Assembly: GCA_015491905.1 (NCBI GenBank)
Contig: WGGC01000103.1
Coordinates: 1-43,155, forward strand
DNA length: 43,155 nt
Origin: Bacteroidales bacterium
GTDB taxonomy: Bacteria; Bacteroidota; Bacteroidia; Bacteroidales; F082
Reading direction: 5' to 3'
The notes beneath the pieces were generated by a model. The model was given only the letters and a program-made list of their open reading frames with translations. It searched no databases and was not told the origin of the DNA. Position numbers and translations under genes: made by a program. Shown one piece after another: positions 11,462-33,714 of the stretch (position 1 is its first letter; each line of letters opens with the position of its first letter).

Positions 11462-12925
11462 ATGGTACCCCCAAAAGATTTAAACGGGAACTATGAGGTT
11501 TCCTTAAAAGACTGGGCCTATCAGGAAAAACTGGCCAATGAATTTATCAGTGTAATTTACAAATTGTTTTATGACAAAAGTATAGAACTGGTCTTATTTC
11601 GCGAACAACTTATTGACAGAAGTGCCAGTGTAATTTTATACAGGCATTCTTACGCAGAAAATATCATTGATAAACCTTTAAACATCAAAGACTCTCTTGC
11701 TTTGGCGAAAGCTATTTTACATTCGAAAGTTGGGCCTTCAAGAATTGATATAGGTAAACTAAACCAGGAATGGACACAAGAGAAAAAAGATTTTATCGAT
11801 GAAGAAGATTTTATACAATATAAGTTAAAAAAGCTCACAGGAAAGAATAATCAGTCGTGTAAACCCAGGGATATAATTTTGTTTGGTTTTGGGCGGATAG
11901 GCCGGTTACTTGCCAGACAACTTATAATTCAGGGAAATGGAACACAATTAAGAGTTCGGGCTATAGTAACCCGGGGAAATGATGACCTTCATATTATAAA
12001 AAGGGCTTCATTATTTCGTCATGACTCTGTTCATGGACCTTTTCGTGGTGTTGCGATTGAAAATCTTGATGAGAAAAATATATATATTAACGGGCACAAG
12101 ATCCTAATGCTGGCGGCCTCGCAACCGGAAGATATAGATTATACTCAGTATGGCATTAAAGATGCTATTTTAATAGATAACACCGGTATTTTTCGTGACA
12201 GAGAAGGCTTAAGCAGGCACCTTGTGGCAAAGGGTGTTGATAAAGTACTACTTACAGCTCCGGGAAAAGGAGATATTCCCAATATTGTTTATGGTGTTAA
12301 TGAAAAGAAAATTAATATTCAAAAAGAAAAAATATATTCAGCGGCTTCATGTACAACAAATGCTGTAACACCAATTTTATTTTTAATAGAAAACGCATTT
12401 GGCATTGAAAAAGGACATCTGGAGACTGTTCATTCATACACTAATGACCAAAACTTACTTGATAATTACCATAAAAAATACAGAAGAGGAAGATCTGCCC
12501 CAATTAATCTGGTAATTACAGAAACAGGAGCAGCAAATGCTGTAGCAAAAGCAATTCCTTCACTGGAAGGGAAGTTGACAGGTAATGCCATTCGTGTTCC
12601 CACCCCAAATGTATCGTTAGTTATTTTATCATTAACTTTAAAAAAAGAAACATCTGTTGAAGAAGTTAATGAACTTGTTCGTAAAGCTTCTCTCGAGGGA
12701 GACCTGGTTCAACAAATAAAATATTCCACTTCCAATGATGCTGTATCTTCTGATTTCATTGGTGAAGGGGTGACATCTATTTTCGACAGTCCTGCTACTA
12801 AAATTTCAAATGACAATAAAAGTATTGTTATATATGTTTGGTATGACAATGAGTTCGGGTATGCTTTACAAGTTATTCGTGTTGCTAAAATGATAGCCGG
12901 GGTCTTAAGACCAACATATTATTAA
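11462..12925 (+). CDS. Glyceraldehyde-3-phosphate dehydrogenase with long N-terminal extension
   Basis: The 487-aa protein is about 150 aa longer than classical GAPDH. The Rossmann start GFGRIGR sits at residues 142-148 and the catalytic SCTTN motif has Cys297. An N-terminal helical domain (residues 1-135) has no recognised motif; extended GAPDHs of this size are known in Bacteroidota. The enzyme oxidises glyceraldehyde-3-phosphate with NAD(P)+ and phosphate in glycolysis or gluconeogenesis. An upstream ATG at 11455 is out of frame and stops after 13 codons, so the start at 11462 was chosen. It is transcribed from the promoter merged with the rpoD terminator. Confidence 0.95.
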   Translation: MVPPKDLNGNYEVSLKDWAYQEKLANEFISVIYKLFYDKSIELVLFREQLIDRSASVILYRHSYAENIIDKPLNIKDSLALAKAILHSKVGPSRIDIGKLNQEWTQEKKDFIDEEDFIQYKLKKLTGKNNQSCKPRDIILFGFGRIGRLLARQLIIQGNGTQLRVRAIVTRGNDDLHIIKRASLFRHDSVHGPFRGVAIENLDEKNIYINGHKILMLAASQPEDIDYTQYGIKDAILIDNTGIFRDREGLSRHLVAKGVDKVLLTAPGKGDIPNIVYGVNEKKINIQKEKIYSAASCTTNAVTPILFLIENAFGIEKGHLETVHSYTNDQNLLDNYHKKYRRGRSAPINLVITETGAANAVAKAIPSLEGKLTGNAIRVPTPNVSLVILSLTLKKETSVEEVNELVRKASLEGDLVQQIKYSTSNDAVSSDFIGEGVTSIFDSPATKISNDNKSIVIYVWYDNEFGYALQVIRVAKMIAGVLRPTYY

Positions 12926-13060: not shown

Positions 13061-14689
<1,629 letters not shown>

Positions 14690-14774
14690 TAATTTGAAAT
14701 TCATAAAACTTTAAACCTTGCAATAAACAATTACTTTCATCACTCAAATAAAAGATGTTATAAGTATCTTTCCT

Positions 14775-14782
14775 TACTTTTG
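14775..14782 (+). promoter_or_regulatory. -7 box (TACTTTTG) placing mutS2 on a nearly leaderless mRNA
   Basis: This is an exact TAnnTTTG match ending only 5 nt before the ATG at 14788. With transcription starting a few bases after the box, the mRNA would start at or within a couple of nucleotides of the AUG. Confidence 0.65.
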
Positions 14783-14787
14783 TATTC

Positions 14788-17214
14788 ATGATATATCCGG
14801 CAGCATTTGAAAATAAAGTAGGCTTTGATAAAATTCGAAGTTTGATTAATGAAGCTTGTATTAGTGATATGGGTAAGGAATATGCTTCACGAATAAAATT
14901 CTCATCCCGGCCAGGATTAATACAACAATGGATAGATCAAACAATTGAATTTCAAAATTTTTTAGAATCCGGGGAATCTTTTCCCATTTCTTATTATTTT
15001 GATTTACGAAATGAATTAAGCAGACTAGTAACCCAGGGTAGTTTTATAGAACAGGAAAAACTATTTGAACTCTATCTATCGTTAAATGTTATAAAAACAA
15101 TTCTGTCACTTTTCAAAAAAGAAGAAGAAACCATATATCCTGAATTAAGCAAACTGGCACATCGTCATGAATTTCCTGAGGATATTTATAATAAAATTGA
15201 AAAAATATTAGATAGAAAAGGAAAGATAAAAGACAAGGCCTCTGAAAAACTTTCAAAAATCCGCACTCAGCTAAACACTTTGCAAAAAAAAGTATTAAAT
15301 GAAACACAAAAAGTTTTTAAAGTAGCCAAAGAGTCGGGATGGACAGCAGAAAATTCTGAAATTTCAATAAGAAATGGTAGACTGGTTATCCCTATGAAAG
15401 CAGCTTATAAAAGATCTATTCAAGGATTTACTCATGATGAATCTTCGAGTGGACAAACTCTGTTTATTGAACCAATTAAATCTTTTGAAATTAACAATGA
15501 AATTCTTGAACTTGAAAATCTTGAAAGAAGAGAAATAATCAAGATTTTAACACAGTTTACAGATTATACAAGACCATACATCGAAGAATTAAAAAATTTA
15601 TATCGTTATTTAGGCATGATTGATTTTATACGTGCAAAGGCCATATTTTCCAAAAAAATTAAAGCCAAAAAGCCGGAAATTGTTAATCAGCCAATAATTA
15701 AATTAAAAGGAGCTTTTCACCCTGTTCTATACCTTAACCATCTTAAAAGAGAAAAAGAAGTTGTTCCACTGGACATGGAATTAAATATAGAAAACCGGAT
15801 TCTTATTATATCCGGACCTAATGCCGGAGGTAAATCAGTATGCTTAAAAACATCCGCCATATTACAATACATGTTTCAGTGTGGATTACCGGTTCCCGCA
15901 TCAGCAGACAGTAAATTTAGTTTTTTTGACAGAATATTTATTGATATTGGAGATGAACAATCTATTGAAAACGATTTAAGTACATACAGTTCTCATTTGA
16001 AAAATATGAAGTTCTTTATTCAACATGCCAATAGTAAAACAATATTCTTTATTGATGAATTTGGAACCGGGACTGAACCGCAACTAGGAGGAGCTATAGC
16101 AGAAGCATCGTTGGAAAAATTAGCACAAAAACAAGCCTTCGGTGTTATTACTACACATTACAGCAATTTAAAAACTGCAGCCGACAAACTTCCAGGTTTA
16201 ATTAACGGCGCTATGCTATTTGATGCTGAAGCCCTCCAGCCATTATATATACTAAAAACAGGACAGCCTGGAAGTTCTTTTACATTTGAGATAGCGAAAA
16301 AAACCGGATTCCCTAAAGATGTCTTAAACCGGGCCAAGAAAAAAATTAATACTAGTCATTTACGATTTGATAATCAATTGCAGCAACTTGAAGCTGATAA
16401 AATTGCTTTGGAGAAGGAAAGAGCTTATTTAAAAAAACAACAATTAGAAATTCAAAAAACTAAAGAAAAATACAATCAACTTAATGAAGAATTACTAACA
16501 CAAAAAAATCAAATTATTAGTGATGCCCAACAAAAAGCGATTAGTATAATAAATAAATCTAATAAAGAAATTGAAAAAACCATAAGAGAAATAAAAGAAT
16601 CAAAAGCTAAAAAGGAAATTACCCAGAATAGCAGAAAAAACTTATTAAAAGTAAAAGAAGATCTGGAAACAGGTTTAAAGAAAAAGCCGGAATACAACCA
16701 GGACATTTCAAAGATAAAGGAAAAATATAATAAACCTGAAATATTTTCATCAGAACCTGTTAAGCCAGGCGACTTTGTATTAATAAAAAGCACCAAATCC
16801 ATTGGAAAGTTACTTTCATTAAAAGGAAACATTGGGGAAGTGGAAATAAACGGAATGCGACTACAGATAAACCAAAATAATCTTGAAAAAACCCTCAGAA
16901 AGCCAAAGCCTTCAACACAAAGCAGAAACTATTCGAGCATATTGGATTCAATAAATGAAAAAGCCTCTCAATTTAATTTAAGTTTAGATGTAAGAGGTAT
17001 GCGTGCTGATGAAGCAATGGAAAAAGTAACAAGATATATCGAAGATGCTGTTGTATTGGGAGCAAAAGAAGTTAGTATTTTACATGGAAAAGGATATGGT
17101 ATTTTACGACAAATAATAAGAGACTACCTTACTACCAGACCAGAAATAAAATCATTTGGGGATGCACCAGTAGAATTAGGAGGAGCAGGTATTACCAGAA
17201 TATATTTTTATTAA
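14788..17214 (+). CDS. mutS2: Endonuclease MutS2
   Basis: The 808-aa protein is full length. The order is a MutS-type clamp region, an ABC ATPase with Walker A GPNAGGKSVCLK near residue 345 and Walker B IFFIDEFGTGTEP, and a long charged coiled coil at about residues 530-650. It ends with a C-terminal Smr nuclease domain (LDVRGMRADEAMEKVT and SILHGKGYGILRQIIRDYL). MutS2 restrains homologous recombination and also rescues collided ribosomes in some bacteria. The N-terminus (MIYPAAFENKVGFDKIR) matches the family start, supporting the ATG immediately after the promoter box. It converges with tatC, with 21 bp between stops. Confidence 0.96.
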   Translation: MIYPAAFENKVGFDKIRSLINEACISDMGKEYASRIKFSSRPGLIQQWIDQTIEFQNFLESGESFPISYYFDLRNELSRLVTQGSFIEQEKLFELYLSLNVIKTILSLFKKEEETIYPELSKLAHRHEFPEDIYNKIEKILDRKGKIKDKASEKLSKIRTQLNTLQKKVLNETQKVFKVAKESGWTAENSEISIRNGRLVIPMKAAYKRSIQGFTHDESSSGQTLFIEPIKSFEINNEILELENLERREIIKILTQFTDYTRPYIEELKNLYRYLGMIDFIRAKAIFSKKIKAKKPEIVNQPIIKLKGAFHPVLYLNHLKREKEVVPLDMELNIENRILIISGPNAGGKSVCLKTSAILQYMFQCGLPVPASADSKFSFFDRIFIDIGDEQSIENDLSTYSSHLKNMKFFIQHANSKTIFFIDEFGTGTEPQLGGAIAEASLEKLAQKQAFGVITTHYSNLKTAADKLPGLINGAMLFDAEALQPLYILKTGQPGSSFTFEIAKKTGFPKDVLNRAKKKINTSHLRFDNQLQQLEADKIALEKERAYLKKQQLEIQKTKEKYNQLNEELLTQKNQIISDAQQKAISIINKSNKEIEKTIREIKESKAKKEITQNSRKNLLKVKEDLETGLKKKPEYNQDISKIKEKYNKPEIFSSEPVKPGDFVLIKSTKSIGKLLSLKGNIGEVEINGMRLQINQNNLEKTLRKPKPSTQSRNYSSILDSINEKASQFNLSLDVRGMRADEAMEKVTRYIEDAVVLGAKEVSILHGKGYGILRQIIRDYLTTRPEIKSFGDAPVELGGAGITRIYFY

Positions 17215-18142: not shown

Positions 18143-18646
18143 TTATGTAAATACAATTTGAGTTCCTTCACCATCGCACATAGCGTAAAGATCGCCAACA
18201 GTAATAATATCTTTTACTGTTTCATGAAAATCTTCTTTTTTTAATTTAAACATATCGGCAGCTAACTTACATGCATAAACTTCCCCTCCACCGGCTTCGA
18301 TTAATTCAAGAAATTCATCGACAGGAGGCATGTCAAGTTTTTCCATTTCTTTTTTCATCATAGTTGTAACTCCAGCTTCCACACCCGGAAGTCCACCTAA
18401 CAAAGTTGGAAATGGCAACCCTCCGGGCATCCTCATTGCAGGATTACCTACAGTAGCTGTATGCAGTTTATTCATAGTTTTTTTGGTAATTGCATCCAGT
18501 CCAAAAAAAGTGAAAAACATTTTTGTTTCAATGCCTTCCATAACAGCTCCATTAGCCATAACCAGAGCAGCATACACATCTTCCAGATTAGCCTTTGAAC
18601 AAATCAGCAATATTTTTTTCAAAGGATGTTTTTTTTCCTTTTCCAT
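18143..18646 (-). CDS. DsrE2-like sulfur-carrier protein (DsrE/DsrF peroxiredoxin-like fold)
   Basis: The 167-aa protein has the DsrE-type alpha/beta start (KKILLICSKANLEDVYAALV). The conserved cysteine is Cys126 in VYACKLAADMF, the position that carries persulfide in DsrE-family proteins. Cys16 and Cys157 are also present. A Gly/Pro-rich loop with Met residues (MRMPGGLPFPTLLGGLPG, about residues 71-88) may be membrane-facing and resembles the DsrE2 subgroup. It is the last gene of an operon with a sulfide:quinone reductase, DUF1641 and a DsrC/TusE-like protein, so it probably receives or passes sulfane sulfur. A terminator follows. Confidence 0.85.
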   Translation of the reverse strand: MEKEKKHPLKKILLICSKANLEDVYAALVMANGAVMEGIETKMFFTFFGLDAITKKTMNKLHTATVGNPAMRMPGGLPFPTLLGGLPGVEAGVTTMMKKEMEKLDMPPVDEFLELIEAGGGEVYACKLAADMFKLKKEDFHETVKDIITVGDLYAMCDGEGTQIVFT

Positions 18647-18663
18647 AGTAGTAGATTTTTAAT

Positions 18664-18975
18664 TTATATACAGGAAACCGGTTTAGGAACACCTGCAATT
18701 TTAGTTGCTTTTTTTAGAGGAGCTCCAGGGAACAATTGATAAAAAGTTTTAGCGTCAACAATTCCGGATTTACCAATTCCCCGAATTGTTAAACCTTCTC
18801 CATTCATTACTTTATTACGGATGAATTCTAATACTTCAAAATGTTTATCCGTTAGTTCAATACCTTCTTCTTTTGCAATCTCAGTGGCGACTTCTCTAGT
18901 CCATTCTGAAGGGTCAGTTAAATATCCTTCCTCATTTACATTAATATTTACGCCAGCTATTGTTTTTGTTGCCAT
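18664..18975 (-). CDS. DsrC/TusE-family sulfur carrier lacking the upstream arm cysteine
   Basis: The 103-aa protein has the DsrC fold and the C-terminal swinging arm ending KIAGVPKPVSCI. Penultimate Cys102 corresponds to CysA of DsrC. The second arm cysteine, CysB, lies 11 residues earlier in true DsrC; here that position is Thr91. By family knowledge, one-cysteine members act like TusE as persulfide relays rather than forming the DsrC trisulfide with dissimilatory sulfite reductase, and no dsrAB is in the window. It is third in the operon, 26 bp after DUF1641 and 17 bp before the DsrE2-like gene. A cytoplasmic sulfur relay role is likely. Confidence 0.9.
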   Translation of the reverse strand: MATKTIAGVNINVNEEGYLTDPSEWTREVATEIAKEEGIELTDKHFEVLEFIRNKVMNGEGLTIRGIGKSGIVDAKTFYQLFPGAPLKKATKIAGVPKPVSCI

Positions 18976-19001
18976 AATTTTATAATTTTAATATTTAATA
19001 A

Positions 19002-19685
19002 TTAATTAGTTCTATTTTTTTCTGATTCTAATGCAATATTTTTAAGGAATGTTATCATAAAGCCCAATCCTTTTCTTAATTCAGGAGCATTCATTGCACG
19101 CATAGCTTTAAGCAAAGAATACTCAGGAATATCATTAGTGTCCAAACTTTTATAAACCACTACTCCGTTATTAATTGCGTCAAGCATTTCAGGTTGTGTA
19201 AGATTTTTTACAGTTTCCAGAATTGTTACAATATTATCTGCCAGACTTCGAACATCTTCTACGCTAAAGTGCTCAACGATATTATCAAGAACCTTAACTA
19301 ATTCTTTAGTGAAACCAACATAACCTTTTACTTCAAGTTCATTAAAGATTTTAATTCCGTCAAGTCCCATTTGATGAATAATAGGCGAAATATCCTTAAT
19401 TAAATCTAACCCACTTTCCATTAGGTCAAAAAGCTCATATAAACTATCTATATTCCTGATTACTTTAAGTAAAAGCATTTTAACAGCCTCGCCATCAACC
19501 TCAACACCTGCAGAATCAAGCTCTGTAACAGTAGTTTTAAAGATATCCTTTCCTATTAAAGAAACATCTGAAACTAAATCTTCTGCTGTTTGCCTTACTT
19601 CTTTTTGTGCAACAATCTCTTCTAAAACCAGGTCTAATTTCCTGTTAATATCATCAATTTGTTGTTGTATTTTATTATTATCCAT
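19002..19685 (-). CDS. DUF1641-family protein
   Basis: The 227-aa, mostly helical, acidic protein has no cysteine and no signal peptide. It begins with a coiled-coil-like segment (IQQQIDDINRKLDLVLEEIV). Later parts (LVKVLDNIVEHFSVEDVRSL and LKAMRAMNAPELRKGLGFMI) match DUF1641, a family repeatedly found next to sulfide:quinone reductase-type flavoproteins in sulfur-oxidising prokaryotes. The biochemical function is unknown; an accessory or membrane-recruiting subunit of the flavoprotein is an inference from the pairing. It lies 27 bp downstream of that gene. Confidence 0.88.
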   Translation of the reverse strand: MDNNKIQQQIDDINRKLDLVLEEIVAQKEVRQTAEDLVSDVSLIGKDIFKTTVTELDSAGVEVDGEAVKMLLLKVIRNIDSLYELFDLMESGLDLIKDISPIIHQMGLDGIKIFNELEVKGYVGFTKELVKVLDNIVEHFSVEDVRSLADNIVTILETVKNLTQPEMLDAINNGVVVYKSLDTNDIPEYSLLKAMRAMNAPELRKGLGFMITFLKNIALESEKNRTN

Positions 19686-19712: not shown

Positions 19713-20942
19713 TTAAAGTTTTTTACCGGCCATTTGCATTTCTGAATCAATAGGCATTTCCCTTCCTTTTAGTAAAATATGCCAGTACAGCCAGCGGAAA
19801 ATCATTTTACCATAATGATTGGTTCTTGTAACTTTAAGGAGTCCAAATGGCCCAACCCCGGGAAAAGGAAAAGAACCCGGTAATGGTTCAGTATCATAAT
19901 TAAAGTCAATTAAGGTTCCCTTACCATATCCGGTTTCAATATAACAGTTAGCATGACCATCAAAACTAGCGGTATAAGGGCGGCCTTCAATGGCACACAT
20001 AAAATTTTCTTCTAAAATCTCAGAGGCAAAATGGGCAACAGAACCTGCTTTTGAGGTAGGCAGGTTGGCAGCATCTCCAATTACAAAAATATTTTTATGA
20101 TCTTTAGCTTGAAGAGTATGCTTATCTGTTAACACATAATTCATGTCATCTCCCAAACCACTTCTTTCTATTAAAGCATCTCCCATATTAGTAGGAATAC
20201 TGACGAGACAATCAAATTTAACCTCTTTTCCGGCATAATCGATAATCTTTTTATTATCATTATCTACTTCTGCCACATTGAAGTCGGGAACAATATTTAT
20301 ATTTTTTGATTTTAATAGTTCTCCTAACATTTTAGTAGCTCTGGGTTTTGTAAAAGCGCCGGGAAGTGGAGTCACATAGGTAATTTTGACCTTATCCCTT
20401 AATCCTCTTTCCGTAAAAAAGGCATCAGCAAAAAATACAAATTCTAATGGAGCAACAGGACATTTATAAGGTAATTCAGCTATATTTACCACTAATTCTC
20501 CACCTTGCCAAGTTTTAAAAAATTTGTTTAGTGCTACAGCTCCTTCAATGGTATAAAAATCAAATATTTCTTTATGCCAAAGTTTATCTTTTAAACCTGG
20601 AGTTTCCTCAGGGGCGGTTCTTGTTCCTGTTGCAATAAATAAATAGTCATAATTAAGTACTACACCATCAGCCAATAAAACTTTATTTTCATTTGCTACT
20701 ATCTTTTCAATACTTGAATAAATAACATTTACCCCAATTGGAAAAAAATCACTTTTTGGTTTAACAACATCTTCTTTGGTGTATAATCCAAAAGGAATAA
20801 ATAAAAAACCGGGTTGATAATAATGGGTTTTAAATTGATCAACAATAGTGATATCCCATTCATCTCTTGCCAATTTTTTTCTCATTTTATTAGCCATCAT
20901 CGTTCCGGCTGTACCAGCACCCAAAATCAATAATTTTTTCAT
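19713..20942 (-). CDS. Sulfide:quinone oxidoreductase-like FAD protein
   Basis: The 409-aa flavoprotein has the FAD-binding LLILGAGTAGTMMANKM at the N-terminus and VIGDAANLPTSKAGSVAHF near residues 287-305. Candidate redox cysteines are Cys161 (LPYKCPVAPLEF) and Cys333 (HANCYIETGYGKG), placed as in SQR, with Cys245 and Cys316 also present. The C-terminal amphipathic region (FRWLYWHILLKGREM) fits membrane attachment at the quinone pool. SQRs oxidise sulfide to persulfide or polysulfide and reduce quinone. It heads an operon with DUF1641, a DsrC/TusE-like carrier and DsrE2-like, suggesting direct transfer of the sulfane product. It is divergent from a crp gene with 131 bp between the starts. 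Confidence 0.88.
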   Translation of the reverse strand: MKKLLILGAGTAGTMMANKMRKKLARDEWDITIVDQFKTHYYQPGFLFIPFGLYTKEDVVKPKSDFFPIGVNVIYSSIEKIVANENKVLLADGVVLNYDYLFIATGTRTAPEETPGLKDKLWHKEIFDFYTIEGAVALNKFFKTWQGGELVVNIAELPYKCPVAPLEFVFFADAFFTERGLRDKVKITYVTPLPGAFTKPRATKMLGELLKSKNINIVPDFNVAEVDNDNKKIIDYAGKEVKFDCLVSIPTNMGDALIERSGLGDDMNYVLTDKHTLQAKDHKNIFVIGDAANLPTSKAGSVAHFASEILEENFMCAIEGRPYTASFDGHANCYIETGYGKGTLIDFNYDTEPLPGSFPFPGVGPFGLLKVTRTNHYGKMIFRWLYWHILLKGREMPIDSEMQMAGKKL

Positions 20943-21047: not shown

Positions 21048-21055
21048 TAAATTTG
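21048..21055 (+). promoter_or_regulatory. -7 box (TAAATTTG) for the first crp gene
   Basis: This is an exact TAnnTTTG match, 18 nt before the ATG at 21074. It covers the TTG at 21053 that would otherwise extend the reading frame, which argues against that codon as a start. Confidence 0.6.
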
Positions 21056-21073
21056 CATTTTAATATTTTTAGA

Positions 21074-21769
21074 ATGAGAATAAAGAAGGATATAATCAGC
21101 TGTAGAACATGTGTTTATCGACAATTACTCTTTGGAGACCTTAATGATATTGAATATGGATTGATAAATGAAGGACGTACGGAAATGCTTTTTAAGCGAG
21201 GGGAGACAATAAAACATGAAGGAGAAGCTATCCAATCATTTCTTTATTTACGCAGTGGTTTAGTAAAACTTTACAAGACAGATAAAACAGGAAAAGATCA
21301 TATTTTAAGTATAAATAAACCTGGAGATTTTGTAAGCTTGTTAAGTATTTTTTCCGGAAACACTTATCGTTACAGCATAACAGCCATTGAAGACACTTTG
21401 GTTTGTGATGTAAATTTAGAAGTATTAAAATATCTTGTAAGTACAAACGGCAACCTTAGCCTTAGATTACTTAATAGAATGAGCAAAACATCAGATGAAA
21501 TAATTGATAATCAATTTGAGTTGGCTCAAAAACAGGTTAAAGGAAGGGTTGCCCATTTATTACTATTTTTTGCAAATCAAATATACCGGAAAAACAGTTT
21601 TAATTTGCCCTTGACGCGAAGAGAGATAGGAGAATTAATTTCAATTACAACTGAAAATACAATTAGAACCTTATCTGAATTTAGAAAAGACGGTATAATA
21701 GATATGGATGGGCGAAAATTAATGATATTAGATAAGGACAGATTAGATATAATTAATAAAGGAGGATGA
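21074..21769 (+). CDS. Crp/Fnr-family transcriptional regulator (paralogue 1)
   Basis: The 231-aa protein has an N-terminal CxxC (Cys10, Cys13 in ISCRTCVYR). A cyclic-nucleotide-binding-type beta barrel follows (GETIKHEGEAIQSFLYLRSG and LSINKPGDFVSLLSIFSGN), then a dimer helix and a winged HTH (LTRREIGELISITTENTIRT). The recognition helix reads TTENTIR, not the RExxxR of E. coli CRP, so it should bind a different site from the two paralogues at 34289 and 35545. The frame can be read from TTG at 21053, but that codon is inside the promoter box, so ATG 21074 was chosen. It stands between, and probably regulates, the sqr-like and psr-rhodanese operons. Confidence 0.92.
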   Translation: MRIKKDIISCRTCVYRQLLFGDLNDIEYGLINEGRTEMLFKRGETIKHEGEAIQSFLYLRSGLVKLYKTDKTGKDHILSINKPGDFVSLLSIFSGNTYRYSITAIEDTLVCDVNLEVLKYLVSTNGNLSLRLLNRMSKTSDEIIDNQFELAQKQVKGRVAHLLLFFANQIYRKNSFNLPLTRREIGELISITTENTIRTLSEFRKDGIIDMDGRKLMILDKDRLDIINKGG

Positions 21770-21799: not shown

Positions 21800-22450
21800 T
21801 TAGCATCCACCGGCAGCAACGGCTTCTCTTTTTCTTCTTTTAAATATCACAGGTTTAGGTTTATTATTTTGATTTAGTTCAAAAGATTTATCAGAACTTT
21901 TTGAAACTTTTGCATAATTAAATCGCTCTATGCCTTTAATATATGAGTTATCAGATCTTGTAGCTGCCAGATTATTTTTATGTTTTAAAAAGTAATTATA
22001 ACCACCTAACAAAACTCTAACATTATTAAAACCTATTTGCCTGAAAAAAAACCATGGTCCATCCGCAGAAAGTTGATTATTAGAATAAAGCACCACAGTT
22101 AATCCATTTTTTTTATAATCTTTAAGAAGACGCAAATTCTTTTTATGTGTCAAGTCGAAAGAAGGAATACTTAATGCCCCGGGAATATGGCCTCTTCCGA
22201 ACGCATATTTATTTCTTAAATCAATTAATACAACATTTTTATTTTTATGATTTAAGACATCTACAAGTTCATAGGGATAAAAGTTAATTTCTGAAGTATC
22301 TTTTAATAATTGAATACTTTGATTAACATTAAGTTTGTAATCATACCGGGACGGCTTCATGGTTAAGAAACCAATAATAACTACAATAACTAAAACAATG
22401 AGAACTCCGAGTGTTTTTTTTGGATTTAATTCGTGAACATTCATTTTCAA
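21800..22450 (-). CDS. Membrane-anchored rhodanese-fold protein with C-terminal AVAAGGC tail (copy 2)
   Basis: The 216-aa protein has one N-terminal membrane helix (about residues 14-30) and a rhodanese domain at about 55-155 (VVLIDLRNKYAFGRGHIPGALSIP). The active-site loop position where rhodanese has its catalytic Cys is Ser123 (VVLYSNNQLSADG). The only cysteine in the whole protein is the final residue, Cys216, at the end of a basic tail FKRRKREAVAAGGC. The topology predicts the domain and tail outside the cytoplasm. It is the last gene of the psr-yeeE operon, 25 bp after its paralogue. The tail may act as a mobile thiol or persulfide carrier (inference). A small imperfect hairpin lies at 21761-21782 but is a weak terminator. 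Confidence 0.88.
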   Translation of the reverse strand: MKMNVHELNPKKTLGVLIVLVIVVIIGFLTMKPSRYDYKLNVNQSIQLLKDTSEINFYPYELVDVLNHKNKNVVLIDLRNKYAFGRGHIPGALSIPSFDLTHKKNLRLLKDYKKNGLTVVLYSNNQLSADGPWFFFRQIGFNNVRVLLGGYNYFLKHKNNLAATRSDNSYIKGIERFNYAKVSKSSDKSFELNQNNKPKPVIFKRRKREAVAAGGC

Positions 22451-22475
22451 TATTTTTAAATCAGCAAATTAACTT

Positions 22476-23087
22476 TTAACAACCACCAGCCGCAACGGCA
22501 GCTCTTTTTCTTTTTTTAAATACTACTTTTTCTTTTTTCATATTACCGGTAACAACTTTTGCACCGGTAAAATAGAGACGTGCAGCCCGTCTGAAGTTAT
22601 ATTGTTCAAAGCTTATTTCCGGATCTGTTTGTTTTGGCCTTTTGGGCTGAATAATTGTTTCAATCCATTCATTCAGGCCACCTCTCATAACATAATTATT
22701 TTTCAAATCCAATCTCCTTAATAATATCCAAACACGATTGGCTAAAATTCCATCATCACCAAACAATACTACTTTAGTTCCGGGATTACCAAAATATTGT
22801 TGACCAGTAGCTGTTTCAATACTGTCAAAAGGAACATTTACAGCATTTGGCAATGAAAATTTATTATACTCTGAGGCCGGACGAACATCAATTAATAAAA
22901 GGGAAGGATCTTTTTCAATTATACGTTTTGCAACCTGATCAGTAGTTACAAATCGTGATGGTTGCAAAATATCCCACAATAATTCTGAAGCAGGCAATTC
23001 CGAAGTATATTTTCTCTCATGAATAAACACTGTACCAATTGCCAAAATAAGCATTATTGCAGTTAAAATATAATAATTTCTATTCAT
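22476..23087 (-). CDS. Membrane-anchored rhodanese-fold protein with C-terminal AVAAGGC tail (copy 1)
   Basis: The 203-aa protein has an N-terminal membrane helix (residues 5-21) and a rhodanese domain at about 45-145 (SLLLIDVRPASEYNKFSLPN and VMRGGLNEW). The catalytic loop reads VVLFGDDGILANR with no cysteine. Its sole cysteine is the last residue, Cys203, in the tail FKKRKRAAVAAGGC, nearly identical to that of the neighbouring gene although the rhodanese domains are quite different. It starts 4 bp after the upstream YeeE-like gene, so the two are translationally linked. The context (sulfur transporter, polysulfide/thiosulfate reductase) suggests sulfane handling outside the inner membrane. 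Confidence 0.88.
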   Translation of the reverse strand: MNRNYYILTAIMLILAIGTVFIHERKYTSELPASELLWDILQPSRFVTTDQVAKRIIEKDPSLLLIDVRPASEYNKFSLPNAVNVPFDSIETATGQQYFGNPGTKVVLFGDDGILANRVWILLRRLDLKNNYVMRGGLNEWIETIIQPKRPKQTDPEISFEQYNFRRAARLYFTGAKVVTGNMKKEKVVFKKRKRAAVAAGGC

Positions 23088-23091
23088 CTTT

Positions 23092-23694
23092 TTAGAATTT
23101 ATAATCTTTAATTCTTTTACGTACTTTTTTTTCTATAGATGCCGTAATCCAGAATGAAGCCAAGGCAAAGACAGTAAATATTAATGCCCACCATCCCAAT
23201 GAAATACCTGTAACATCAGCAAGAGTAACATGTCCAAGATTAGCACTTAAATAAAATTTTTCTAAAAAAGGATAACCTTCAGCAAAAAAGAAAATGCCAA
23301 TATAAAGACCGATAGCAAAAACAAGTGCATCTATTTTACCAATAGTGATTGCTGTAAAGCTAGTTCCCGGGCAAAAGCCTCCTATTATCATACCCACTCC
23401 CATAATTACCGCACCAGTAATCATAGAAGGCAAAAACGTTGGTAAAATAAAGATTTGAGAAAGATTTACCCAACCAAAATATCCCATATATAATAACCCT
23501 ACCATTGCAACAATAACAGCAGTAAAAAACACACGGATAACAACAAAATTATAACCATAGAAAACACCGGCAATGTTTCTGGAAGAAGAAAAGCCACTGG
23601 ATTCCAGTAAAAATCCGAAAGCCATTCCGATAAAAACTGCGATTAAAAGATTCCAGTTTGAAGAAATAAATCCATTAAGAACAAGAGGTCCCAT
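23092..23694 (-). CDS. YeeE/YedE-family sulfur transporter, half-size protein (C-terminal-half type)
   Basis: The 200-aa membrane protein has about five or six helices. Family motifs are GFLLESSGFSSSRNIAGVFY at about residues 27-46 and GVGMIIGGFCPGTSFTAITI at about 98-117, the latter with the conserved Cys that coordinates sulfur substrates in the thiosulfate importer YeeE. It forms a pair with the next half-size gene (23725-24258), replacing one double-length YeeE. It probably imports thiosulfate or another sulfane compound into the cytoplasm, where TusA-type carriers take over. Confidence 0.88.
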   Translation of the reverse strand: MGPLVLNGFISSNWNLLIAVFIGMAFGFLLESSGFSSSRNIAGVFYGYNFVVIRVFFTAVIVAMVGLLYMGYFGWVNLSQIFILPTFLPSMITGAVIMGVGMIIGGFCPGTSFTAITIGKIDALVFAIGLYIGIFFFAEGYPFLEKFYLSANLGHVTLADVTGISLGWWALIFTVFALASFWITASIEKKVRKRIKDYKF

Positions 23695-23724: not shown

Positions 23725-24258
23725 CTAAACCCATAATTTTCTAAAAAAGTAGGCTACGGCAAAAGCAGATCCAAAAAGAACAAACATGACCACCACACCC
23801 CCATAAGAAAAAGTAGATGCACCACTTAAAGCAGCACCGCTGGTACAGCCTCTACCCAACCTGGTACCAAAGCCAAAAAGTATACCACCAATTAAAGCAT
23901 ATATCAATCGTCTTTTTGCAGTTATACTTTTACCATGTTCAATAAAAGGTTTTTTTATACGTTTAAAAAGTATTCCTGACAATAACCCGCCAAGGAAAAC
24001 ACCCAAAACCTCATAATCCAGCCAATTACTCATAGGAGAAGTATCCTTTTTTAAAAATTTTTTATAATAAGTTGAGTTTTCTGCCGCTTTTGGACTAATA
24101 ACTTTGGCGGTTTCCACAACAGTATTTCTCACAGAACCACTAATGCCCAGTTCGCGACCTGAAATAAAAATTGAGATGAGCATGACAATACCCAGCAATA
24201 CTCCTCCTAAATAAGGGTTAATATATTTCTCATTATTTTTTTTAATAGAGTTTTCCAT
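23725..24258 (-). CDS. YeeE/YedE-family sulfur transporter, half-size protein (N-terminal-half type)
   Basis: The 177-aa membrane protein has the motif FGFGTRLGRGCTSGAALSGA near residues 128-147, whose Cys is the conserved substrate-contact residue of the YeeE/YedE family. There is an N-terminal membrane segment and a periplasmic loop (SPKAAENSTYYKKFLKKDTS). It is 20 bp downstream of the NrfD-like gene and 30 bp upstream of its partner half. The two likely assemble into one pseudo-symmetric channel. Confidence 0.88.
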   Translation of the reverse strand: MENSIKKNNEKYINPYLGGVLLGIVMLISIFISGRELGISGSVRNTVVETAKVISPKAAENSTYYKKFLKKDTSPMSNWLDYEVLGVFLGGLLSGILFKRIKKPFIEHGKSITAKRRLIYALIGGILFGFGTRLGRGCTSGAALSGASTFSYGGVVVMFVLFGSAFAVAYFFRKLWV

Positions 24259-24278: not shown

Positions 24279-25220
24279 TCAATATAAAAATCTGGTAATT
24301 TGACCTGCATCTACCATTACGAATCTAAACATTAAACCTCCAAAAAGAATAAATAAAGCAGGTATCCATTTAGGAACATGATATCCTATAAGCTCCAATA
24401 TTTCCAGAGTAACGGGGAAGAGCAATCCCAGCAACACAACAAATATCCAAAAGTCCAAAGTAAACTGACCTCCCATAAACAAACGCAAAGCTTCTAATTT
24501 TACCTGTGTTCCTGCCCAGAAACCCATAAAAAGGTGAATAATAAAAAATAGTTCTGTCAGTATAAAGAAAATATCTATTGTACTAAGAACTTTTCTTTCA
24601 TGTTTATCATTACTTATCCACATAGCAGAAGCTAACCCTGTTGAAAAACCAGAAACCAAAAATAAAGGCCCTAAAATAGAAACATTCCATAATGGCCGTG
24701 CATTAAATGCAGAAAGCAATATACCTGTATATACTGCAAGAATTATGGAAAGAAATAACATAACCCAGGCTAATGCCAGCCTGTATTTAATTACCAGAGC
24801 TTCAAACCAGTTTAACACTTTCCATTTCCAATCCCAACCCGGAAACATTTCTTTCATGTAACTGCCAACCCAAATTAGTGAAATCGGGAATATAATTAAC
24901 AAAGTCCATGCACCCCAAGACATTGGAGAGTCAATACGAACTGTAGTAAATAACCTCCAAAAATAAAGTTTATGATGCAGGTCATATAACAATGATGACA
25001 AACCAATAATTAAAGCTAAAGGAGCAATAAGAGTTGCCCATTTTACTGTTGCCTGCATTTGTTTTTCTTTTCCTGTAATATAAAAATAAGCTGCAAAGAA
25101 AAGAACTCCACCGGCTAAGCCGCCTAAAAACAGATAAAGAGATATCTCCCAATGCCATAAATGAAGTACAGGATAAATTTCAGGGATATTTTTTCCACTA
25201 ACTATTAATTCTTCTTTCAT
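24279..25220 (-). CDS. psrC: NrfD/PsrC-type membrane quinone-interacting subunit
   Basis: The 313-aa protein has eight or nine hydrophobic segments and the NrfD family start (HLWHWEISLYLFLGGLAGGV). LYDLHHKLYFWRLFTTVRID and SPMSWGAWTLLIIFP are the region that forms the quinone pocket in PsrC. It anchors the molybdoenzyme and Fe-S subunits and exchanges electrons with menaquinone. It is third in the operon after the catalytic and Fe-S genes, 21 bp from the latter. The choice of Psr (polysulfide), Sre or Phs (thiosulfate) cannot be made from this subunit alone. Confidence 0.88.
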   Translation of the reverse strand: MKEELIVSGKNIPEIYPVLHLWHWEISLYLFLGGLAGGVLFFAAYFYITGKEKQMQATVKWATLIAPLALIIGLSSLLYDLHHKLYFWRLFTTVRIDSPMSWGAWTLLIIFPISLIWVGSYMKEMFPGWDWKWKVLNWFEALVIKYRLALAWVMLFLSIILAVYTGILLSAFNARPLWNVSILGPLFLVSGFSTGLASAMWISNDKHERKVLSTIDIFFILTELFFIIHLFMGFWAGTQVKLEALRLFMGGQFTLDFWIFVVLLGLLFPVTLEILELIGYHVPKWIPALFILFGGLMFRFVMVDAGQITRFLY

Positions 25221-25241: not shown

Positions 25242-25775
25242 TTACCTTAAGAAATAAATTTGAGGATTTGTTCCTGCTTCCGGTGCCAGAACATACCAGC
25301 TTCTATCCTTCATTGCTTTGGAAACTTCACTATTTGGATCATCCAAATCACCAAAATGCAGACAATAAGTCGGGCAAACGTCAACACAAGCCGGATTTTC
25401 TCCTTTGTCAACTCTATGAATACAAAATGTACACTTATCAACATATCCTTCCGGATGAACGTATCGGGCATCATAAGGACAGGACTCAATACAAGCACCG
25501 CAACCAATACATTCATCATGAGTTACCAACACTATACCTCCTTCTACAATATGGCTTGCACCCGTAGGACAGCACCTTACACAAGGAGCATTTTCACAAT
25601 GATTACATCTTTCCGACTGAAATTTCATATCCAAACTTGGATATGCACCTTCAACATTCTCGACAATCCAATCCCGGCAGTAGCCATTAGGAACAAGATT
25701 TTCTGTCTGACAAGCTACTACACAATCTGCGCAGCCTACACATTTGTTTGTATCAACAGCCATTGCATATCTCAT
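25242..25775 (-). CDS. psrB: 4Fe-4S electron-transfer subunit of the molybdoenzyme (PsrB/PhsB type)
   Basis: The 177-aa protein has the sixteen cysteines expected for four [4Fe-4S] clusters. Groups start at Cys12 (CVGCADCVVAC), Cys57 (CNHCENAPCVRCCP), Cys89 (CIGCGACIESCP) and Cys115 (CTFCIHRVDKG, completed by Cys130 and Cys134). It wires the catalytic subunit to the NrfD-like membrane subunit. The start overlaps the upstream stop (ATGA). A canonical AAGGAGG Shine-Dalgarno lies 7 nt before the ATG, inside the end of the catalytic gene; this is stronger than most ribosome sites in the window. Confidence 0.93.
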   Translation of the reverse strand: MRYAMAVDTNKCVGCADCVVACQTENLVPNGYCRDWIVENVEGAYPSLDMKFQSERCNHCENAPCVRCCPTGASHIVEGGIVLVTHDECIGCGACIESCPYDARYVHPEGYVDKCTFCIHRVDKGENPACVDVCPTYCLHFGDLDDPNSEVSKAMKDRSWYVLAPEAGTNPQIYFLR

Positions 25776-28030
25776 CCTTTATCCTCCTTTTTATTTTTAT
25801 ATGGATCTTCCTTTAAAAATGTTACAAAATTTACTCTCATTCCTGTACCACCCATAATAGGGTCCATAGCATAATGGGTAATCATTTTTTCGTCACTTGC
25901 CCCCCGGCCATAAGCTCTGGTAAGTTTTTTATCAGAATGCCCGAAGCCATGAACCATATATACAGAATCCCAGCGAATTCTTTCGGTTACTCTTACTTCT
26001 ACCGAAAAATCTGTCAAGGCTCCATCTTGGTTTTTTAACCATACTTTTTCACCGTTTTTTAAACTCCACAAATTGGCAACAGAAGGATGAACCCAAACAG
26101 TATTTTGTTTCATTAAATCCCACAAATTATGGTTGTTTTGTGTCCTTGAAAAAGTGTGCATTGGCGCACGGCCATATATTAACCGATAAAAATTTTGAGG
26201 TGGTTCAGGATGTGGTTTATATACAGGGAACGGATTAAAACCAGCACTTTCAAACTCCGTAGAATACAACTCTACTTTACCTGTATTGGTATTAAATTCA
26301 AAATTTTCATAATCATCTAAATATAGTGGCCCTGATGTTCGTGGAAATGTTTTTACGCCAATTTTTTTCATTTCTTCCAAAGAGGTTCCTACTTGTTTAA
26401 ACTGCCAGTCCAACACTTCAGAATAATCATCGTAATTAAAATAATCGTGAAGACCAAGCCTTTCACCTATTTGTTTTACAATCCACCATGCCGGTTTTGA
26501 TTCATATTTTGGTTTAACAGCAGGCATTCGCAAGGCAATAGAGGGATATCTATTTTGAGCAGCTCTGATAAAATCATATCTTTCAAGGTATGTAGCTTCA
26601 GGCAATACAACATCAGCATAACCGGTAACTTCCATAGGCATTGTATCAATTACCGCAAAAAATTCAATTGATTGAACAGCTTCTTTGAATAAAGGTTTAT
26701 CCGGCATTGAAAGAGGTAAATTTGTTCCTGCTGACAACCATGCCTTAACTTTATGTTTATAATTATATTTCGGAACTGATGCCCTGATAATCTCTGTGGT
26801 AATTCCCATTGTAGCCAAAGGGAAGCGACCTTCATTCAAATCTTTCCAATTCCATTTTGTTTCAGGATATGGCGGTTGTGGAAATTTTGGAATCTCCATA
26901 GCCTCCGGAATATAAAGGCTTCCGCGATAACCCCATGCCCCTAGAAGTCCTGTTAAAATTCCCATTGCTCTTTCCCGTTGTGTATCATCTCCATACCATA
27001 CAACATGGCGACCGGGGTGAATTACAACAGCAGGTGCATGTCCAGCCATTTCCCTTGCCGTACGACGAATCAGGTCGGGTTCTATAGTAGTTATACCATA
27101 GGCCCATTCCGGTGTCATATCTTTTACATGTTCTTTTAGCTGATCGAATCCAAAGGTGTATTTCTTTACAAAGTCTTTATTATAGATATCCTCATAAATC
27201 AAAACATGAATCCAGGCCATTAACAAGGCTATATCAGTAGAAGGTTTAATAGGCAACCAATATTTAGATTTTGCTGCAGGTGTGCTAAACCTCGGGTCAA
27301 CAGTAATAATTGTTGCTTTTTGATCTATGGCCATAGACATTTCTTGAACCTGAGTATTGTGCATATTTTCTCCAATATGCGATCCAATTAAAACCAAACA
27401 ACGTGTATCTCTGATATCAGTACATTCGGGAGACCCAATATAGGAACCATAGGTTGCATAATAAGCTGCCGATCGAGGACCACGACACTGAGCGTATGCA
27501 GGTTCGGCATCTGTTTCGCTACCATAGGCTTTCATTAAATGGGCCAAATGACCTCCGGGAGTACCATGATGAAAGAAACCAAAAGCCTCCGGGCCATACT
27601 TTTCTTTTATTTCTTTCATTTTATTGGCAATCTTATCCAGGGCTTCATCCCAAGATGCACGACGGAAATATTGGGAACCATCTTTTCTGGTTTCTCTTAT
27701 CAAAGGAGTTTTAAGTCTGTCCTCGTCATAATACATACCAATCCCACCTGTCCCTCTTGGACATAAACGACCATTGCTGTTAGGATCGTTAGGGTTTCCA
27801 ACAATTTTTCTAATCTTACCTTTTTTATCCACATAAGTATAACCGGCACATTTCCAAAAACAAACTTCACAATATGTAGGATAAGGAGTTAAATCTTCAT
27901 TACTTACCGGATCTCCTGAAAATTTTTCCGGAAACCATTTAAAACCTTTTCCTTTAAGTGCTTGCAACCCTATAGCTGCAGCACCTACACCAGCCGTTGA
28001 TATTTTTATAAATTCACGTCTTGTTTTCAT
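25772..28030 (-). CDS. psrA: Tat-exported molybdopterin oxidoreductase, polysulfide/thiosulfate/sulfur reductase type
   Basis: The 752-aa catalytic subunit begins with a Tat signal (TRREFIKISTAGVGAAAIGL), placing it outside the inner membrane. The [4Fe-4S] ligands are Cys54, Cys57, Cys61 and Cys90 (TYCEVCFWKC and RLCPRG). Cys182 in AYAQCRGPRS is the probable Mo ligand. Molybdopterin-binding stretches include VVIHPGRHVVWYGDD and VVLPEATYLERYD. Family members reduce polysulfide, sulfur, thiosulfate or tetrathionate, or run in reverse. Adjacent YeeE and rhodanese genes favour a sulfur substrate. It heads a seven-gene operon with a CRP-like palindrome upstream. Confidence 0.9.
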   Translation of the reverse strand: MKTRREFIKISTAGVGAAAIGLQALKGKGFKWFPEKFSGDPVSNEDLTPYPTYCEVCFWKCAGYTYVDKKGKIRKIVGNPNDPNSNGRLCPRGTGGIGMYYDEDRLKTPLIRETRKDGSQYFRRASWDEALDKIANKMKEIKEKYGPEAFGFFHHGTPGGHLAHLMKAYGSETDAEPAYAQCRGPRSAAYYATYGSYIGSPECTDIRDTRCLVLIGSHIGENMHNTQVQEMSMAIDQKATIITVDPRFSTPAAKSKYWLPIKPSTDIALLMAWIHVLIYEDIYNKDFVKKYTFGFDQLKEHVKDMTPEWAYGITTIEPDLIRRTAREMAGHAPAVVIHPGRHVVWYGDDTQRERAMGILTGLLGAWGYRGSLYIPEAMEIPKFPQPPYPETKWNWKDLNEGRFPLATMGITTEIIRASVPKYNYKHKVKAWLSAGTNLPLSMPDKPLFKEAVQSIEFFAVIDTMPMEVTGYADVVLPEATYLERYDFIRAAQNRYPSIALRMPAVKPKYESKPAWWIVKQIGERLGLHDYFNYDDYSEVLDWQFKQVGTSLEEMKKIGVKTFPRTSGPLYLDDYENFEFNTNTGKVELYSTEFESAGFNPFPVYKPHPEPPQNFYRLIYGRAPMHTFSRTQNNHNLWDLMKQNTVWVHPSVANLWSLKNGEKVWLKNQDGALTDFSVEVRVTERIRWDSVYMVHGFGHSDKKLTRAYGRGASDEKMITHYAMDPIMGGTGMRVNFVTFLKEDPYKNKKEDKG

Positions 28031-33336: not shown

Positions 33337-33585
33337 TTATTTTCTTAAGAAAATTTTGAAATATCCCGATTCTTCAAGCGTTCCGAGATAATCAAAGCCT
33401 TTTTTGTTACACCATTTCGGTATATCACGGCGCGTGCCTTCATCCGCCGAAAGCACTTCCATAATTTGTCCTTTTTCAATTTGGCCAATGGCCTTTTTTG
33501 CTGCTAATAAAGGACCCGGGCATGAAGTTCCCCTTGCATCCACAGATTTATCAACTTTAAGTGATTTCAATTCTTCTTCGTTCAT
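33337..33585 (-). CDS. tusA: TusA-family sulfurtransferase
   Basis: The 82-aa protein has the family signature DARGTSCPGPLLAAKKAI, with the persulfide-carrying Cys22 in CPGP. The frame can be extended to an ATG at 33663, but the extra 26 residues do not belong to TusA and family alignment supports ATG 33585. TusA carries sulfane sulfur in the cytoplasm. Placed between a DsrE gene and an MvhD/Hdr gene set, it probably passes sulfur from DsrE to the Hdr/Qmo-like complex, as in other DsrE-TusA-Hdr systems. About 130 bp separate it from dsrE. Confidence 0.93.
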   Translation of the reverse strand: MNEEELKSLKVDKSVDARGTSCPGPLLAAKKAIGQIEKGQIMEVLSADEGTRRDIPKWCNKKGFDYLGTLEESGYFKIFLRK

Positions 33586-33714
33586 AAGATTAAATATTAA
33601 ATTTGTTAATATAATTGGTTCTTTAAATAAATTACAGAGTACTGCTTTTACCGGCATCTGCAAAAAATGTGGCTATGCCAAAATACCCTAGACATGAATT
33701 TTTTTAAAAGTGAA

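Follow-up and report, generated by a model that had tools for sequence, protein, structure and literature searches.

A conserved C-terminal Gly-Gly-Cys tail on rhodanese-fold proteins that probably serves as a sulfur-carrying arm tied to YeeE transporters

Two adjacent genes of a Bacteroidales bacterium, here called R1 and R2, lie on contig WGGC01000103.1 (assembly GCA_015491905.1), of which positions 1 to 43,155 (the whole stretch of DNA analyzed, hereafter the window) belong to a 3.0-Mb draft genome. Both encode a membrane-anchored rhodanese-fold protein that has lost the catalytic loop cysteine and ends in a cysteine preceded by two glycines. This tail is a real and widespread feature, and probably works like the arm of SoxY, tied to a YeeE transporter. 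Judged from comparisons of sequence, it is moderately likely that R1 and R2 are extracytoplasmic sulfur carriers that use the tail as a swinging thiol or persulfide arm for loading YeeE. A swinging thiol carrier had been put forward in the original prediction, made from the letters of this stretch, and is retained here as the best reading, with the persulfide, the partner and the direction of transfer as its conjectural parts.

Conservation of the Gly-Gly-Cys tail

R1 (22476..23087) and R2 (21800..22450), both on the minus strand, were recognized by sequence, Pfam and AlphaFold, and R1 also by Foldseek, as signal-anchored rhodanese-fold proteins without a loop cysteine and with a GGC tail. R2 may begin at the listed TTG, which gives 216 amino acids, or at an in-frame ATG at 22444, which gives 214. 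The two proteins score 58.7 and 57.9 bits against the Pfam Rhodanese domain (PF00581; cut-off 22.2), which is their only Pfam match, with neither a SoxY domain (PF13501) nor a TusA domain. The loop position of the rhodanese cysteine reads LFGDDG in R1 and LYSNNQ in R2, and the catalytic cysteine is therefore absent from both. By the criteria tested, R1 and R2 appear to be neither SoxY nor active rhodaneses. The single cysteine of each protein is its C-terminal residue, at the end of the tails FKKRKRAAVAAGGC in R1 (22479..22520, minus strand) and FKRRKREAVAAGGC in R2 (21803..21844, minus strand).

In the AlphaFold model of R1 (predicted local distance difference test score, pLDDT, 81.7), a membrane helix (residues 3-20) is followed by the rhodanese core, a further helix (157-174) and a predicted disordered end with pLDDT below 50 (177-203); the end of R2 is also modeled at low confidence, in blocks of 55-65 from about residue 181. 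By estimate, the 27 tail residues could span several nanometres. The best Protein Data Bank (PDB) matches to the R1 model in Foldseek are of the rhodanese type, and at a cut-off of 0.001 an R1 profile picks out 13 distinct PDB sequences, most of which bear the name of a rhodanese, a thiosulfate sulfurtransferase or a structural-genomics protein; it matches 1qxn (molecule name sulfide dehydrogenase) at 6.3e-4, and also 2jtq. Nearly all R1 (65 of 66) and R2 proteins (62 of 64) have a predicted N-terminal membrane helix, and a lipobox, counted by a strict pattern, is found in 3 of 64 R2 proteins and in 6 of 12 copies of a third, larger protein (R3). Because the lipobox in some R2 and R3 proteins implies export, these features strongly suggest that R1 and R2 are extracytoplasmic. 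The description of the two as adjacent, membrane-anchored rhodanese-fold proteins devoid of the loop cysteine, with which the original prediction began, is thus upheld by the open reading frames (ORFs), the Pfam match and the N-terminal helix.

Conservation was assessed in 80 loci kept of 118 relatives (loci are labeled L and genomes G), of which L064-L128 (65 loci) were analyzed together with the window, L129-L143 being weak generic rhodanese matches; this sample includes near-duplicates (L078 and L081) and two loci, L127 and L128, of one metagenome-assembled genome (MAG). R1 is tailed in 65 of the 66 loci (GGC end in 53, GGC followed by one residue in 12), and in the remaining one the gene runs off its contig. 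For R2 the count is 59 of 64 (51 and 8, respectively). R3, partly selected by its GGC end, is also tailed in the 12 loci that carry it. A set of 105 R1-type proteins, which R1 proteins from L144-L183 entered only if they ended in GC or GC plus one residue, ends in GGC (71), EGC (12), MGC (4), DGC (1) or GGC followed by S, G, E, D or T (15); the two proteins without such an end are that of L127, which is cut, and a mis-assigned YeeE2 ORF of L158. The loop cysteine is absent from 99 of the 105, and the six proteins that have it are all tailed. Alignments of full-length or tailed proteins from a chosen Met show an invariant GGC and M1 that arise partly by construction, and these are not counted as evidence.

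The constant part of the tail across these sequences is GC, mostly GGC, usually behind a patch of Lys and Arg. Of the AVAAGGC tail first described, the GGC ending is thus kept in general, the residues before it are not, and one residue may follow the cysteine. That the last residue is the sole cysteine is correct for R1 and R2 of the window and does not extend to the family, in which the body is free of cysteine in 33 of 66 R1 and 32 of 64 R2 proteins.

An origin of the tail by chance or from background was rejected by two counts. The DNA pattern for AAGGC followed by a stop has two matches in the whole genome, which are R1 and R2, and the reversed control has none. A further 971 ORFs with 200 or more amino acids (window, L064-L128 and L144-L203) include 36 that end in GC, with or without one more residue, and GGC is the ending in 24 cases. 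Of the 36, 35 belong to rhodaneses or to fusions of YeeE with a rhodanese, the last one (L120, 385 amino acids) being unscanned. Five further rhodanese ORFs of the genome keep a loop-like cysteine and lack the tail. Outside the 971-ORF set, a GGC-tailed protein of 209 amino acids with no Pfam match adjoins YeeE2 at L046:7905-8534. A one-contig relative, L060, has three exact 300-nt copies with a spacing of 2391 nt (9820-10119, 12211-12510 and 14602-14901); the repeat starts within the 3′ end of R2, and both downstream copies recreate a 97-residue ORF with the R2 end and the tail.

The tails of one locus resemble each other. When seven positions (the six residues before GGC and one after) were compared in 44 pairs, obtained from 59 pairs by clustering at 80%, the R1 and R2 tails of one locus agree at 5.27 positions, shuffled partners agree at 2.28 (a value as high as that of the true pairs arises in 0 of 10,000 shuffles), and comparison with the ortholog in the nearest genome gives 3.95 (R1) and 4.18 (R2), both lower than the own-pair value (Wilcoxon p 1.2e-4). 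Domain identity is 25% between R1 and R2 within a genome, and 63% and 55% to the nearest orthologs. Examples of shared tails are KEEEEGGC in three proteins of L097, QAAAGGCE in three of L114 and KPVSGGCG in two of L120. At positions with the same residue, codons are identical in 51% of cases inside one genome and in 45% when different genomes are compared, and 62 of 2000 shuffles give a value at least as high as the first. Because this codon excess is only slight, the likeness of the tails lies mainly at the protein level, and gene conversion is unlikely to be the main cause of the twin tails. Together with the retention of the tail in almost all R1 and most R2 proteins, the concerted evolution of the tails strongly supports the view, already advanced from the sequence of the window, that selection acts on the tail.

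Matching of twin and triplet tails within an operon would also be expected if the tail were an assembly or redox switch, in which a disulfide between twin tails or with YeeE gates a complex, or a sensor of sulfane sulfur like SoxT1B, for which signaling is known according to a passage of PMC11582611. In keeping with such a role, a gene for a Crp-like regulator (21053-21769, on the strand opposite to the operon; family name from reading of the sequence) directly adjoins the operon. However, a single tailed protein is present in many of the stretches read (the 19 loci L209-L227, L052, L053 and most fusions), so that a partner tail is not required, and a switch or sensor is distinctly unlikely.

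C-terminal sorting signals resemble a short motif after a basic patch, and the tail, as a short conserved C-terminal motif behind such a patch, might accordingly be a sorting, lipidation or processing signal for a dedicated enzyme. Yet a hydrophobic segment is absent beside the tail, no NCBIfam model of a C-terminal signal matches R1 or R2, and a residue after the cysteine is tolerated in 12 of 65 tailed R1 and 8 of 59 tailed R2 proteins; the ending sits on rhodanese-type proteins in the 971-ORF set, with an exception elsewhere in L046. Moreover, tails differ between operons of one genome: in G121, the fusion of an operon with an octaheme cytochrome (OTR) ends in -KRVVGGC and R1 of the Psr-type operon in -KKKKREGC, and in G073, the second genome in which two tailed operons were read, the ends are -KRVLGGC and -KKKKKEGC. 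Because the tails are operon-specific in these two genomes, an operon-specific partner is favored over a cell-wide processing enzyme, and a role as a processing signal is hardly probable at all.

Association with split YeeE and function of the tail

The genes upstream of R1 are those of a split YeeE and a Psr-like enzyme, all on the minus strand, in the order PsrA-PsrB-NrfD-YeeE1-YeeE2-R1-R2 from 28030 to 21800. YeeE2 (23092..23694), which in other genomes is fused to a tailed R1-like domain, and YeeE1 (23725..24258), which contains the cysteine of the GRGCTSG motif, match the N-terminal and C-terminal halves, respectively, of the Sulf_transp model (Pfam PF04143), a split arrangement as in PmpAB (described in a passage of PMC11582611). 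Among relatives, the motif of YeeE2 is found in 100 of 103 and the original form of the YeeE1 motif in 66 of 102; the eight exceptions inspected all have ARGCTSG. The Psr-like enzyme consists of an NrfD/PsrC-like membrane subunit (24279..25220; Pfam), a PsrB/PhsB-like iron-sulfur subunit (25242..25775; Pfam and NCBIfam) and a PsrA/PhsA-like molybdopterin oxidoreductase (25772..28030), whose best NCBIfam match is thiosulfate reductase PhsA, below the cut-off of that model. The tailed proteins therefore stand beside a Psr-type molybdoenzyme and YeeE, as the original prediction had described.

PF04143 was searched across the phylum, where 132 of 247 genomes match, and 60 loci were read: the 40 strongest of the split type, 19 of a weaker type and one full-length YeeE of the same genome as the window. 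A protein ending in GC or GC plus one residue adjoins YeeE2, or is fused with it, in 38 of the 40 split-YeeE loci of the window's type (37 assigned by script, 20 of them separate and 17 fused, and L158 by inspection). None of the 20 other YeeE loci has the tail, though five of them precede a rhodanese-domain protein. The two untailed split loci, L144 and L179, have no Psr or OTR genes, and their genomes carry a tailed OTR-type fusion elsewhere (L236 and L239). Among the loci read for comparison of operons within a genome (L232-L240), L233, L234, L237 and L238 of tailed genomes are YeeE loci without a tail, as is L240, which has an untailed rhodanese. In L147 and L170, a single ORF has both Sulf_transp and Rhodanese domains by Pfam as well as the tail, and the other fusions were recognized by profile. 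The linkage to YeeE that had been suggested as a check is thus observed, and YeeE is probably the partner of the tail. Fusions of YeeE2 and an R1-like domain with a GGC or EGC tail occur in L147, L150, L165, L170, L177, L182 and others, mostly in octaheme-cytochrome operons.

Of the 38 tailed loci, 17 have an octaheme cytochrome (16 of them with a fusion), 16 have PsrA and five have neither in the stretch read. It is conceivable that the tail serves an oxidoreductase of the periplasm, either a PsrA-like enzyme or the octaheme cytochrome, in the way that Sud works for the polysulfide reductase of Wolinella, and that YeeE is a mere neighbor. R1 follows PsrABC-YeeE in most loci of the neighborhood reading, tails of this kind also occur in the OTR operons, and 1qxn, which we take to be the Sud protein that feeds Psr, is among the matches of the R1 profile. 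Nevertheless, YeeE is the constant partner in both operon types, the fusions seen join YeeE2, and the five loci without PsrA or OTR in the fetched stretch (at least L159 being on a short contig) are tailed as well; a tail dedicated to the oxidoreductase is for these reasons unlikely.

The YeeE family also bears on another explanation, according to which the thiol at the tail end would hold a soft metal or a selenium species for the molybdoenzyme or the transporter. YeeE/YedE includes putative selenium transporters (weak NCBIfam matches), and two thiol tails could form a two-ligand site. However, each tail offers a single thiol, operons often have just one tailed protein, the tail alignment has no conserved His or second Cys, and the neighbors are sulfur genes, which makes binding of metal or selenium very unlikely.

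Rhodaneses that retain the loop cysteine occur in some of the same operons. In L160, L162 and L166, a tailless rhodanese with an intact loop (YCHIGQQA) lies directly before YeeE1 (L160:6877-7797, L162:8124-9032 and L166:8341-9285), and a tailed R1 that lacks the loop cysteine and, by pattern, any other body cysteine follows YeeE2. At L145, the tailed R1 and R2 proteins have no other cysteine, and behind them come two tailless rhodaneses of the tandem type that keep their loop cysteines. Elsewhere, R3 is a tandem rhodanese with both loops and the tail, the loop motif being found by pattern in 11 of 12. Because the loops of these rhodaneses are intact, these operons probably encode an active sulfurtransferase that might charge the arm, and its position beside a tailed R1 looks like a division of labor. 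The original prediction had named homologs in the same operon context that keep the loop cysteine and lack the tail as evidence against itself; no R1 or R2 ortholog inspected is of this kind, and the rhodaneses of L145, L160, L162 and L166, which are, each adjoin a tailed R1 without the loop cysteine. A small lipoprotein-like rhodanese with both an intact loop cysteine and a VGGC tail is encoded at L079:692-1231, L088:616-1203 and L117:7491-8039, adjoining cytochrome b or octaheme cytochrome genes (by Pfam for L079 and L117).

In the favored model of a sulfur carrier that loads YeeE, the reactive thiol would have left the rhodanese loop for the end of a disordered tail of about 25-30 residues, where Gly-Gly-Cys stands behind a basic patch, and the rhodanese core would now be a docking or substrate-shaping body. 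The tail would take up sulfane sulfur as a cysteine persulfide, supplied by the polysulfide or thiosulfate chemistry of the Psr-like enzyme, by sulfide:quinone reductase (SQR) or by the active rhodanese of the operon. Anchored beside YeeE2 or fused to it, the tail would present the persulfide to an outward cysteine of the YeeE1/YeeE2 channel, and TusA, DsrE, DsrC-type carriers and Hdr-like proteins would take over inside. The tail would thereby be an added thiol on the outer side, mirroring the inner-side cysteine of YeeD, which is called a fourth cysteine on the cytoplasmic side in a passage of PMC11073785. Zero-valent sulfur is taken up by split YedE1E2 (passage of PMC10812762), and transfer of sulfur from the SoxY cysteine to the cysteines of SoxT is called conceivable (passage of PMC11582611). 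A more specific form of this model, in which the loaded cysteine of a transporter-tethered arm enters the mouth of the channel and sulfur crosses from thiol to thiol by group translocation, and not as a free ion, is possible and tentatively proposed. The persulfide, the docking on YeeE and the inward direction are suppositions of the model; export, or delivery to PsrA, would fit much of the evidence as well.

Several observations weigh against the carrier model or narrow it. Five of the 64 R2 proteins are tailless (L116, L118, L125, L126 and L087, the last perhaps truncated), as are second proteins of Fulvivirga (L207) and L056, which are outside the 64; none of the tailless R2-type proteins inspected has a loop cysteine, and the R2 tail is thus dispensable in those loci. 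R3 and some R2 proteins (L097 and L113) have another cysteine near or in the loop. The stretch ahead of GGC is basic in some proteins and acidic or glycine-rich in others, a variation unexpected for fixed docking unless the partner co-varies, and 6 of the 44 tail pairs agree at three or fewer of the seven positions; the slight codon excess within genomes also leaves room for some gene conversion. Direct transfer of sulfur between YeeE cysteines about 7 Å apart is called questionable in a passage of PMC11582611. Finally, a lone terminal cysteine fits other roles than the supposed carrier chemistry, and the tail may have PsrA or the octaheme cytochrome as its partner in place of YeeE.

Distribution and neighboring genes

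At a threshold of 1e-5, 40 of 60 related genomes contain an R1 match, and the tailed R1 appears from these sequences to be common in Bacteroidota that have this type of YeeE. Named strains with the tail include Maribacter arenosus CAU 1321, in which both R1 and R2 are tailed (L093), and Fulvivirga sp. M361, with a tailed R1 (L123). In the phylum of G309, a MAG of Candidatus Neomarinimicrobiota, 25 of 100 genomes have a match at 1e-15, and in 24, among them G309, the match lies below 1e-45. All 20 loci obtained from this search end in GGC, mostly as -KKAPAGGC, and a second tailed protein is found only at the locus of G309 itself; G309 may carry Bacteroidota-like contamination, but all the loci except one (19 of 20) come from other genomes. 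In the phylum of G310, a Phycisphaeraceae MAG (L125), 3 of 99 genomes match at 1e-15: G310, which is tailed on a 9-kb contig and possibly misbinned, G616, whose protein ends in EEEEGC (L230), and G699, whose end is unresolved (L229). In the phylum of G306, a gammaproteobacterial MAG (L141), the only match among 200 genomes at E 1e-10 is G306 itself, which is tailless, and a scan of viral contigs gave no relative. Restriction of the tail to a single genome, which would have spoken against a function, is thus excluded by its wide occurrence, a second phylum included.

Beyond R2 and the Crp-like gene, the window encodes SQR of type III (19713..20942, minus strand; NCBIfam), which adjoins the R1 operon in several loci, followed by DUF1641, DsrC/TusE-like and DsrE2 proteins (18143..19685, minus strand; Pfam and NCBIfam), which are neighbors in several loci and possibly form a cytoplasmic sulfur relay, and by a TatC-like protein. 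The DsrC/TusE-like protein (18664-18975) has only the penultimate cysteine (VSCI), the second arm cysteine being absent, and SQR (19713-20942) scores far above the cut-off of the NCBIfam model for the selenoprotein subtype of type III sulfide quinone reductase. Upstream of the operon are Hdr-like proteins, TusA (33337..33663, minus strand), which is a possible cytoplasmic acceptor, and a DsrE-like protein. Farther along, a cytochrome b561-type protein is fused to two PAS domains (36389-37918), and a 909-amino-acid cytochrome b-like protein with a multi-haem extension (40411-43140) adjoins a Rieske-like protein; relatives of the latter pair are found near the R1 operon in several loci. An Rfam search of the window gave no match.

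According to passages of PMC11582611, the import of sulfur to the cytoplasm is poorly understood and the inward step from SoxYZ is unknown. If the carrier model is correct, a tail design common to many bacteria may show how sulfur enters the cell. The tail also reaches Neomarinimicrobiota, a group tied to ocean sulfur cycling through psrABC in passages of PMC5688066, the main text of which does not contain the word rhodanese. The titles and abstract starts of open-license PMC articles revealed neither a GGC-tailed rhodanese nor a fusion of YeeE with a rhodanese, a weak negative, as subscription papers are mostly outside that collection.

Comparison with known sulfur carriers

DsrC and the ubiquitin-like carriers bear sulfur at the C-terminal residue, and the latter end in GG and use the carboxylate. 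They had been proposed as analogs of the tail, to which SoxY is closer. Their folds and, most likely, their compartment differ from those of R1 and R2; in comparison with the beta-grasp ubiquitin-like carriers, R1 and R2 have the rhodanese fold, and a Cys follows the GG.

Sud of Wolinella succinogenes and PspE resemble R1 and R2 in the rhodanese fold and in the association with a Psr-type enzyme, and 1qxn and 2jtq are the corresponding profile matches. However, Sud and PspE use the loop cysteine, whereas R1 and R2 have lost it and conserve the terminal one.

The YTD cluster of sulfur disproportionators consists of genes for YeeE, TusA, a DsrE-like protein and two hypothetical proteins (passage of PMC13047784). 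Genes of the YeeE, TusA and DsrE types are all present in the window, but YeeE of the window is split and sits with PsrABC, R1 and R2, approximately 9 kb from tusA.

YeeE/YeeD (TsuA/TsuB) and split YedE1E2 (PmpAB) belong to the same transporter family, with halves as in PmpAB and a partner that supplies an extra cysteine. In contrast to YeeD, which is cytoplasmic and TusA-like, R1 and R2 are anchored proteins of rhodanese fold with an N-terminal membrane helix and lie most likely on the other side of the membrane. The passages available on YeeE/YeeD and on split YedE1E2 mention no tailed rhodanese or YeeE-rhodanese fusion.

The closest likeness is to SoxY of SoxYZ, which also has a glycine-flanked C-terminal carrier cysteine on a flexible arm and is linked in the literature with the YeeE-type SoxT. 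The cysteine of its GGCGG motif binds sulfur substrates (passage of PMC6067878) and sits on a swinging arm (passage of PMC5336275). SoxYZ working in parallel was rejected as an explanation, because no SoxY was found in this genome, and of 60 relatives a single one has it. R1 and R2 differ from SoxY in their unrelated rhodanese fold, in being membrane-anchored or fused to the transporter, and in the ending itself, which is GGC, x-G-C or GGC plus one residue, with no trailing GG.

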